Assembly (NCBI RefSeq): GCF_004138325.1
Contig: NZ_SBLB01000001.1
Coordinates: 496,001 to 560,000 of the forward strand
Source: Spirosoma sordidisoli
Lineage (GTDB): Bacteria > Bacteroidota > Bacteroidia > Cytophagales > Spirosomataceae
Length of the DNA: 64,000 bases
Direction of reading: 5' to 3'
The translations under genes and the position numbers were made by a program. The notes below the pieces were generated by a model that was not told the DNA's origin, searched no databases, and worked only from the letters and a program-made list of their open reading frames with translations. Shown piece after piece: positions 7,145-28,091 of the stretch. Positions within the stretch are counted from its first letter, which is position 1. Every line of letters starts with the position of its first letter.

Positions 7145-7152
7145 TAACTTTG
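7145..7152 (+). promoter_or_regulatory. Candidate Bacteroidota -7 box upstream of icmF
   Basis: TAACTTTG fits the Bacteroidota -7 consensus TAnnTTTG exactly and lies about 118 bases before the icmF ATG. No clear TTG-type -33 box is seen at the expected distance, so the call rests on one element. No cobalamin-riboswitch-like conserved core was seen in the leader that follows. Confidence 0.35.
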
Positions 7153-7269
7153 GCAAAAAAGGAGAAGAACGGCAGACCAGCAGACGGCAGGCAGGCGATT
7201 TCGACAACGGGATCCGGTCTGTTTCACCACGATCAGCCTGCTCGTCTCCGCCTTATTCCCTTCATCAAT

Positions 7270-10200
7270 ATGATCGCTACTCCCGCTAAACCCCAGTCCC
7301 AGCCCGAAACCGGCTGGACCCATAAAATCCGTATCGTCACGGCCGCGTCGCTCTTCGACGGCCACGATGCGGCTATCAACCTTATGCGCCGGCTGATGCA
7401 GGCGTCGGGCGCTGAAGTCATTCACCTTGGCCATAACCGATCCGTTGCCGAAATCGTCGACTGCGCCATTCAGGAAGACGTACAGGGCATTGCCATTACC
7501 AGCTATCAGGGCGGCCACCTTGAGTTTTTCAAGTATATGTACGACCTGCTGAATGAACGCGGGGCAGGTCATATCCGAATTTTTGGCGGAGGGGGCGGCA
7601 CCATTCTGCCCTCGGAGATCGACGAGCTGCACGCCTATGGGATCACCCGCATTTACAGCCCCGACGATGGCCGCGCCATGGGATTGCAGGGCATGATCAA
7701 CGACCTGCTGCAGCAGTGCGATTTTGAACTCCCCCCCCTGCCCACCACCGACCCCATTGACGTCCACGCCATTCCCCGGCTGATCACCACGGCCGAGAAC
7801 GAACGCGCCACGGAGAAGCAACGGCCCGGCGAACCGGCCTTTGCGGCTCAGCGACCAGATGGCGCCCTGTCGAACCCGCCGGTGCTGGGTATTACGGGTA
7901 CGGGCGGAGCCGGCAAGTCGTCGCTGGTCGATGAGCTGGTGCTGCGCTACCTGCGTACCTACCCCGACAAAACACTGGCCATTATTTCGGTCGACCCCTC
8001 GAAGCGAAAAACCGGCGGGGCCCTGCTCGGCGACCGAATTCGGATGAATACCATCCATAACCCTCGCGTTTACATGCGGTCGCTGGCCACGCGGCAGTCG
8101 AATCTGGCGCTGAGCCGCCACGTGCAGGATGCCATTGACGTCTGCAAAGCCGCCCACTTTGACCTGATCATCGTCGAAACCTCCGGCATTGGGCAGTCCG
8201 ACACCGAAATCACCGAACATGCCGACAAGACGCTGTACGTGATGACGGCGGAGTACGGCGCAGCGACGCAGCTGGAGAAAATCGACATGCTCGACTTCGC
8301 CGACGTCATCGCCATCAACAAATTCGACAAACGCGGCTCGCTCGACGCCCTGCGCGACGTGCGCAAGCAGTACCGCCGGAATCATAACCTCTGGGACACG
8401 GCCGACGATGCGCTGCCTATTCTGGGCACGATAGCCTCGCAGTTCAACGACCCGGGCATGAACGCCCTGTTCGATCGGCTGATGGAAACGCTGGGACTTT
8501 CGCCGGGACCAGTCGCGAGCAACGCAGAAATTCAAGGTACAACCCCTGCTCCCCCCCAGGCCATTATTCCCCCCGACCGGGTGCGGTACCTGGCCGAAAT
8601 TGTGGAAGAGAGCCGCCGTTACGACGCCTTCGTGAACGAACAGACAGCCCTCGCCCGCCAGCTCTACCAGATTGACGGCGTCCTCCAAACCCTGTCCGTG
8701 GTCGTAGACCCGGACAGTGGTGGAGTGGCGAGCAGAGGGGAAACACTACCGACACCACGCCCCGGGTCTGCGACCACGGACAGGGTGTCGGTACACACCG
8801 AACTCCAGAAACTGTATACCGAACTCGAAGCACGGCTTCATCCCGACTGTCGCTACTGGCTACAGCAGTGGCCCGCCATGCAGCAGCGGTATACGGCCGA
8901 CGTTTACGAATTTAAAGTCCGCGACAAAGTGATCCGGCAGCCGCTGTATACCGAAACCCTGTCGCACCTGAAAATACCGAAGGTCAGCCTGCCCAAATAC
9001 CACGACTGGGGGGATGTGCTGCGCTGGCTGCTGACCGAAAATGTACCGGGCGAGTTCCCTTACGCAGCCGGGGTATTCCCGCTCAAGCGCGAGGGCGAAG
9101 ACCCAACCCGTATGTTTGCGGGCGAGGGTGGCCCCGAACGAACCAACCGCCGGTTCCACTACGTCTCCAAAGGGCAACCCGCCAAACGGCTCTCCACCGC
9201 TTTTGACTCCGTAACGCTCTATGGCGAAGACCCGGCGCTGCGTCCCGACATTTTTGGCAAGGTAGGCAACTCGGGCGTGAGCGTCTGTACCCTCGACGAT
9301 GCCAAAAAGCTCTACTCGGGCTTCGACCTCTGCGACCCGGCCACCAGCGTCTCGATGACCATCAACGGTCCCGCGCCCATGCTGCTGGCCTTCTTCCTCA
9401 ACGCAGCCATCGACCAGCAGTGCGAAAAATGGCTGGCCGACAACGCAGACAGCCTCAAACTCGCTTCAGCCCCCCACGCTCCGGCCTACAACGGACCGCT
9501 CCCCGAAGGCAATAGCGGGCTGGGACTGGGCCTGCTGGGCACCACCGGCGACCGGGTACTGCCGCGCGAGGTCTATGAGCAGATCAAAGCCGACACCCTG
9601 CGCAAAGTTCGTGGTACCGTACAGGCCGACATTCTGAAAGAAGACCAGGCCCAGAACACCTGCATCTTCTCGACCGAATTTGCGCTCAAAATGATGGGCG
9701 ACATCCAGCAGTACTTCACCGACAACCGCGTCCAGAATTTTTATTCGGTGTCGATTTCGGGCTACCACATTGCCGAAGCGGGCGCCAACCCCATCTCGCA
9801 GCTGGCCTTCACCCTCTCCAACGGCTTTACGTTTGTCGAATACTACCTCAGCCGGGGTATGCGGGTCGACGATTTTGCGCCCAACCTGTCGTTCTTTTTC
9901 TCCAACGGCATGGACCCCGAATATACCGTTCTGGGTCGGGTAGCCCGGCGCATCTGGGCGAAGGCGATGAAGCACAAGTACCGGGGCAACGACCGAAGCC
10001 AGAAGCTGAAGTACCACATCCAGACCTCGGGCCGGAGTCTGCACGCGCAGGAGATTGCGTTCAACGATATCCGCACCACCCTGCAGGCCCTGCTCGCCAT
10101 CTACGACAACACCAACTCGCTGCACACGAACGCCTACGACGAAGCCATCACGACCCCTACCGAAGAATCGGTTCGGCGGGCCATGGCCATTCAGCTCGTC

Positions 10201-10710
10201 ATTAACCGCGAATTCGGCCTGACAAAAAACGAAAATCCGCTGCAGGGTTCGTTCGTTGTTGAAGAGCTTACGGACCTGGTCGAAGAAGCCGTCTATCAGG
10301 AATTTCTGGCCATTAACGAACGCGGAGGGGTGCTGGGCGCCATGGAACGGATGTACCAGCGCAGCAAGATTCAGGAAGAATCGATGTACTACGAAACCCT
10401 GAAACACAACGGCGACCTGCCCATCGTGGGGGTCAACACCTTCCTCGACCCCAACGGCTCACCTACCATCGTGCCGGCCGAAGTGATCCGTAGCACCGAC
10501 GACGAAAAACGCAGCCAGGTCGACAACTGCCGGACCTTTCAGGAGCGTCATCGCGCCGAAGCCGAGGTAGCACTGGCCAACCTCCAGGCTACCGCCCTGG
10601 CCAATGGAAACCTATTCGAGAGCCTGATGGAGGCCGCCAAAGTTTGTTCGCTGGGTCAGCTCAGCAATGCCCTGTACGCCGTAGGGGGCAAGTATCGCCG
10701 AAATATGTAA
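7270..10710 (+). CDS. icmF: Fused isobutyryl-CoA mutase IcmF (B12 domain - G-protein chaperone - mutase)
   Basis: A 1146-residue fusion enzyme. The order is: B12-binding Rossmann domain at about 15-150 (the FDGHDAAIN block with the cobalt-ligand His, then [12 protein letters not shown]); a MeaI-like GTPase from about 205 (P-loop GTGGAGKSS, then [16 protein letters not shown], and the NKFD guanine motif); a helical linker; and the acyl-CoA mutase TIM barrel from about 560 to the end ([46 protein letters not shown]). IcmF interconverts isobutyryl-CoA and n-butyryl-CoA with adenosylcobalamin; the fused GTPase acts as its reactivation chaperone. The ATG at 7270 is chosen because an upstream ATG at 7150 adds 40 residues that do not resemble the family. 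Codons 474-506 are an in-frame palindromic insertion (see 8689-8786). Confidence 0.93.
8689..8786. repeat. Palindromic element inserted in frame within icmF
   Basis: Bases 8689-8713 and 8762-8786 form a 25-bp inverted repeat with one mismatch (8705 against 8770). Inside it a second 6-bp stem (8717-8722 with 8753-8758) continues the hairpin. The element begins at a codon boundary of icmF and is translated as about 33 residues rich in Gly, Ser, Pro, Thr and Asp, while the flanking linker ([12 protein letters not shown] before, [15 protein letters not shown] after) is helical and ordinary for the family. Similar selfish palindromes inside genes are known in Rickettsia (RPE). No second copy of this sequence is seen elsewhere in the window. 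Confidence 0.8.
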
Positions 10711-27981: not shown

Positions 27982-28091
27982 GGCTCGAGGGGCTGCCTTT
28001 TTTGCCCCCAGCCCCCTAAAGGGGGAGCCCACTCGACGGGGTTATCTCCCCCTTCAGGGGGCTGGGGGCAAAAAAGGCAACCCTTCGAGCC
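27982..28091. repeat. 46-bp inverted repeat, REP/MITE-like element
   Basis: Bases 27982-28027 and 28046-28091 pair over 46 positions with three mismatches around an 18-base loop. Each arm holds a CCCCC/GGGGG block with a 6-base T-run (left) or A-run (right). The C/G-rich core resembles a widespread type of intergenic palindrome in Bacteroidota genomes (from memory). It is not followed by a T-run and is not next to a stop codon, so a terminator role is unlikely. Confidence 0.75.

Follow-up and report, generated by a model that had tools for sequence, protein, structure and literature searches.

A near-perfect inverted repeat occupies positions 8689-8786 of the 64,000-nucleotide stretch of Spirosoma sordidisoli DNA analyzed here (the window), in frame within icmF, the gene for a fused isobutyryl-CoA mutase. 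A sequence-only reading had proposed a gene-invading palindrome comparable to the Rickettsia palindromic elements (RPE), which would add a loop to the protein where chaperone and mutase meet. Our analysis leads us, with considerable confidence, to identify this palindrome as two hairpins of a REP-like family, here termed R1, in inverted arrangement; the pair lies in frame in a tolerant inter-helix loop of the linker, adds about 28 residues and would have originated by the steps proposed below.

The palindrome and its place in IcmF

The 25-nt arms (8689-8713 and 8762-8786, with one mismatch) and the inner stem (8717-8722/8753-8758) are present as the sequence-only reading described them, and an inverted-repeat search extends the arms to 34 nt at 88% complementarity. 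Folding of the strand from 8680 to 8795 gave a z of -6.3 against 200 dinucleotide shuffles, none of which was as good. The palindrome does start on a codon boundary of icmF and the frame is open throughout; its length, however, is 98 nt, and it therefore amounts to 32 2/3 codons and not to exactly 33 as had been stated, the net gain being 28 codons when compared to the 84-residue linker of most Spirosoma. The left arm alone forms a hairpin (CTGTCCG-T-GGTC-GTA-GACC-CGGACAG) with an outer stem CTGTCCG/CGGACAG, a bulged T, a stem GGTC/GACC and the loop GTA, and the right arm is this same hairpin with a diverged outer stem. No Rfam model matched at its gathering score anywhere in the window; between 8500 and 9000 there were seven matches, all far under gathering, six of them to microRNA hairpin models and one, outside the palindrome, to a lncRNA model.

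Features of the icmF locus, with position in the window, strand and supporting evidence
icmF, fused isobutyryl-CoA mutase	7150..10710	+	ORF, Pfam domains, solved relative 4xc6
Left R1 unit, REP-like hairpin with bulged T	8690..8721	+	R1 model 54.9 bits (itself one of the 23 model-building units); covariation
Spacer between the two R1 units	8722..8753	+	I2 arms 8747-8768/8772-8793
Right R1 unit in inverted orientation, one stem side diverged in its outer half	8754..8785	-	R1 model 47.4 bits (itself one of the 23 model-building units)
Right flank TGTCGGTA	8786..8793	+	same in S. lacussanchae except one base; inverted copy in spacer

Judging from homologues, the true start of icmF is probably the ATG at 7267. 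The Pfam domains of the protein (B12-binding 61-161, MeaB 209-417, MM_CoA_mutase 627-1178) bear out the proposed position of the insert between the GTPase and mutase domains, the palindrome encoding residues 475-507 in the numbering of the AlphaFold model. The alignment to 4xc6, the best solved relative, falls into two stretches, of which the first stops at 498 and the second restarts at 514, with the insert point inside the gap. The AlphaFold model, a modest one built with 33 sequences and having a mean pLDDT of 61, predicts a helix at 441-480, a stretch below pLDDT 50 at 481-501 and a further helix at 502-523, and because of this succession the insert point is placed in a low-confidence loop flanked by two predicted helices, in agreement with the suggestion of an added loop in a helical linker.

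The R1 repeat family

A search of the genome for the palindrome arm found its core at 21 places (at most three mismatches, window copies included) as opposed to one for the reversed pattern. In an alignment of 23 R1 units, stem pair 8-23 is A-U in 11, C-G in seven and G-C in three of the 22 distinct rows, a compensatory change whose covariation score of 0.192 compares with 0.071 for shuffled alignments that ignore the relatedness of the rows (0/500) and with at most 0.067 for slid controls; on this sequence evidence, covariation supports the R1 hairpin. A covariance model of R1 yields 40 matches in the S. sordidisoli genome (G000) at E ≤ 1 and 37 at E ≤ 0.01, and the family is found in four of 36 Spirosoma genomes: G000 with 37 matches, G034 with 118, G020 with 17 and G009, taken to be S. 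lacussanchae since its icmF match falls at the corresponding place, with 12.

In S. sordidisoli the 40 matches resolve into 17 sites, icmF being one. Four of the other 16 are fully contained in an ORF of 80 aa or more (87, 90, 102 and 293 aa), none of these four ORFs having a Pfam match, and several of the remaining sites are only a few tens of nucleotides away from the end of an ORF. The G034 genome offers a larger sample, namely 55 sites taken from the listed part of its 118 matches and typed from 117 R1 hits less six weak ones: 33 are pairs in +- arrangement, 15 are pairs in -+ arrangement and seven are single, so that 48 of 55 are paired, and two of the single sites (L242, L251) each have a dropped weak partner. 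Among the matches listed, an ORF of 120 aa or more covers eight of the 55 sites; the Pfam scan of these ORFs found no match in five and domains wholly downstream of R1 in two (L241, L243), while the eighth, L260 (2532-2663), is an AcrB-type pump gene whose in-frame R1 pair lies between its two ACR_tran stretches, the only one of the 55 listed sites with Pfam domains on both sides. Neighboring genes, taken as mechanical ORFs of at least 150 aa, are convergent at 22 and divergent at seven of these listed sites.

In the closest relative found, S. lacussanchae, the icmF site is not empty, for it carries one R1 hairpin at this place. Five orthologous R1 sites can be compared between the two genomes: at four (icmF, L194, L196 and L200) S. 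sordidisoli has two to five units and S. lacussanchae one, whereas at the fifth both have two. The extreme case is L194 (2939-3199), an alternating array of five units whose ortholog L268 has a single one.

Inserts in the IcmF linker of other genomes

An icmF match was obtained in 33 of the 36 Spirosoma genomes. Measured between fixed anchors, the linker has 84 residues in 22 of the 33 and 85 in one, and it is longer in 10, namely G000 (112 residues), G009 (90), G034 (99), G022 (100), G006 (98), G012 (109), G013 (110), G019 (119), G025 (94) and G029 (97); loci L097, L104 and L106 have no row in this measurement. The alignment puts the inserts, of +6 to +35 aa, within a few codons of one point. 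The two outcomes that would have spoken against an insertion, a segment common to all close homologues or an arm without copies elsewhere in the genome, did not occur, as the segment is absent from most relatives and the arm recurs. In a separate genome, G032, the icmF reading frame at L325 shifts shortly past the linker, which may be a gene break or an assembly error.

Strong palindromes account for six of the 10 inserts, those whose inverted-repeat score lies above all 25 windows of the same gene (G012 36, G013 23, G000 22, G019 19, G029 18, G009 11). In the other four, windows of the same gene score as high: G006 (score 8; 3/25 windows) and G022 (5; 25/25) have short hairpins only, and the inserts of G034 (6; 11/25) and G025 (6; 11/25) are non-palindromic. 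For the linker of L057, control windows are as high as the observed score in 2/25 cases, and a second palindrome lies elsewhere in the icmF of that locus.

Seven of the 10 inserts are repeats found elsewhere in their own genomes, one is a unique palindrome and two are neither; G006 and G022 are counted with the repeat-bearing cases because their inserts are repeated in genomes. The G012 insert has at least 80 matches in G012 (palindromic sites being counted on both strands, and 40 of 82 candidates scored). Matches to the G013 insert number 43 in G019, including one within the icmF of G019 itself, and 15 in its own genome. The G006 insert has 22 in G006 and 20 in G012, and since it matches so often in G012 the two insert types are taken to be related. 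The weakest repeat case is G022, whose insert at E ≤ 0.05 has 25 matches in G022, mostly short and weak, and 17 in S. sordidisoli, with a best non-self E of 2.4e-4 (G022). For the G029 palindrome, the search of its genome returned only the palindrome itself. A second palindromic repeat type is seen in the window at 27985-28085, outside ORFs of at least 120 aa, as CCCCCTAAAGGGGG-like hairpins in an inverted pair whose outer flanks are, by eye, inverted copies; one of the 17 matches of the G022 insert in S. sordidisoli falls here.

The insert types are thus R1, that of G012/G006, that of G013/G019 (which has short stretches in common with G012/G006), that of G022 and the unique G029 palindrome. 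At least three of them (R1, G012/G006 and G022) appear to be unrelated repeat types, in the sense that no type's search matched another type's icmF insert. Among the carriers, the tree gives supported branches to a G013/G019/G025 clade, a G000/G009 clade, G034 with G020 and G022 with G003/G008, while G006, G012 and G029 fall elsewhere with weaker support. Sister species thus have several repeat types with no relation to one another at about one codon position of one enzyme, most others keeping the 84-residue linker, and nature has in this way supplied a series in which one can ask whether repeats pick their sites or selection leaves only the tolerant ones.

Palindromes are also concentrated in the linker over a wider set of 104 IcmF genes, from which G032 was left out and five loci duplicating other genomes were skipped. 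Inverted repeats scoring at least 11 number 12 in 8,538 nt of linker versus 37 in 344,571 nt elsewhere in the genes, the short G009 hairpin being masked by a longer-loop match and scored as outside the linker; at a score of at least 15 the counts are 11 and 10 for the same lengths. Several of the non-linker repeats are near other variable loops, some 240-275 residues downstream. Other ORFs of at least 300 aa in the window and in L033-L112 and L193-L207 hold one strong palindrome in 294 kb versus 10 in 253 kb of icmF, these loci having been picked by icmF similarity with no regard to palindromes (L033-L112), by the palindrome itself (the window) or by R1 copies (L193-L207); the clean count for other genes is zero, because the single match is the unmasked icmF of L097. 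When 77 linker segments were compared by BLAST with the flanks of their own loci, three matched, all from L097 with its icmF unmasked; of the control windows, with icmF unmasked there too, 308 of 770 matched.

Some further features of these genes deserve mention. The linkers of L057, L058 and L075 and the icmF genes of L277 and L297 contain palindromes that end in GTAGAGACG or GTAGAGACC and have a GTAG-tagged look. A DUF559 nuclease-like domain lies in frame downstream of the linker in the icmF of L077 (Pfam, residues 775-878), and by motif match only a similar domain is seen downstream of the linker in L057, L075, L081 and L097. In the icmF of Mucilaginibacter hurinus (L097, 3708-7934), similar repeat-like stretches can be recognized by eye in at least three inter-domain places.

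Origin of the insert and comparison with known systems

The icmF insert is best read as a REP-like dimer that has been remodelled and is tolerated because its loop is permissive. R1 copies would arise via processing of a single-stranded hairpin, whether through replication errors or through a HUH enzyme that is unlinked or has been lost; intrastrand template switching or tandem duplication would next lengthen the hairpins and raise their number, and selection would purge the copies from genes except in permissive inter-domain loops, that of icmF included.

In a minority of R1 copies the left and right flanks are inverted copies of each other, with letters that differ from site to site. The flank inversion score is at least 6 in five of the 38 units used out of 43 R1 matches (37 from S. 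sordidisoli and one, L033, from S. lacussanchae), the permuted mean being 0.03, and the other 33 have nothing notable. Among the matches listed for G034, to which the pair permutations were restricted, flank inversion is found in six of 33 +- pairs and seven of 15 -+ pairs (permuted 0.17 and 0.21). At icmF, the right flank, which S. lacussanchae also has, recurs inverted in the spacer as TACCGACA (8747-8754); in the G013 insert, the left arm repeats in inverted form coding DNA of the right flank that is present once in G025; and at the orthologous sites L195/L267 an inverted flank is visible by eye in both species with different letters, L195 scoring 21. Such locus-specific inverted flanks are the footprint expected of template switching, and they resemble the hairpins described in PMC8794818, where reverse-complement copies of neighboring DNA create or perfect a stem, with the difference that here the inverted copies surround a repeated element. 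They suggest that an established hairpin can give rise to inverted copies of neighboring DNA, coding sequence included. Insertion into pre-existing palindromes, considered as a cause of the flanks, is contradicted in two cases, by G013 versus G025 and by G000 versus G009, and may apply to the others.

It might be argued from these same flank inversions, from the unique G029 palindrome at about the same point and from the G013 arm that template switching inside icmF made the whole palindrome on the spot and that it is no inserted member of a repeat family. We regard this as highly improbable: the R1 core, with its covarying stems, recurs at the 16 other S. sordidisoli sites and in three further species and is consequently not local, so that local switching would account for no more than the additional pairing of the flanks and perhaps the doubling. 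We also consider it very unlikely that the insert is kept since the loop serves IcmF, for instance by tuning the coupling of GTPase and mutase; while more than one lineage, indeed several, carry inserts here and strong palindromes occur in icmF and in none of the other ORFs of the same loci, the inserts vary in sequence and length by lineage, two thirds of the Spirosoma genes (22 of 33) do without one, and the low-complexity stretches fit neutral tolerance.

There is some, albeit limited, likelihood that the insert is an ordinary REPIN mobilized by a RAYT encoded at another genomic location, as would suit its bulged inverted hairpins with a short spacer, their location mostly between genes and the three Y1_Tnp genes of S. 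sordidisoli. The ends of R1, however, which read CCCTG and CAGTGG, have no conserved GTAG, which is near either end on either strand in six of 37 units of S. sordidisoli and four of 24 sampled G034 units; no R1 was present within about 1.5 kb on each side of any of nine Y1 loci in the four R1 genomes (three in G000, two in G009, one in G020 and three in G034); and G020 has its R1 matches in spite of a sole Y1 match that is weak and has two stops. Given this absence from all nine loci, the movement of R1 is not linked to any enzyme. The S. sordidisoli Y1 gene at L031 was rejected by this test as a partner of R1, for it sits among a different repeat (VASLRDGG in translation) that is possibly its own REP family. 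Even granting a tolerated REP-like dimer as the source of the insert, the inter-domain loops of IcmF could be a true hot spot, where unrelated palindromic repeats of Bacteroidota are steered or selectively kept beyond plain tolerance, and where the in-gene DUF559 nuclease-like domain may aid spread in Mucilaginibacter-type genes. This idea is tentative and rather unlikely to hold; if true, one gene would record the independent arrival of many repeat families.

Among known systems, GTAG-tagged repeats associated with RAYT are termed REP, BIME or REPIN in PMC3733652 and PMC8266576. R1 resembles them as a bulged imperfect palindrome of 20-50 nt in many copies, mostly extragenic, and in its arrays and inverted pairs with a short spacer, seen at icmF and at the 48 paired sites among the G034 matches listed; it differs from them in that GTAG is not conserved, in that the nine Y1 loci have no transposase gene flanked by the same repeat (RAYT or TnpAREP) and in that some of its inverted flanks are locus-specific. 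PMC3733652 also describes intragenic REP dimers that encode 20-30 aa in various genes, and our search of the open-licence literature found no earlier report of an R1-type insertion in icmF. The CGTC-tagged Rickettsia elements RPE-4 and RPE-6, for which the cited passages of PMC3733652 report no dedicated transposase, are alike in their in-frame insertion and added residues. The parallel drawn by the sequence-only reading thus holds for a repeated palindrome that lies in frame and open in icmF and has many copies in the genome; it is not supported for the notion of a gene-invading family, icmF being one of 17 sites in S. sordidisoli and one of the 55 sites listed in G034 having Pfam domains on both sides. 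CGTC is near an end in two of 37 S. sordidisoli units and none of 24 sampled G034 units. With neither tag conserved, R1 is filed as REP-like and not as a GTAG REP or an RPE, and its mostly extragenic placement therefore makes it a REP/BIME-like repeat and no habitual invader of genes.
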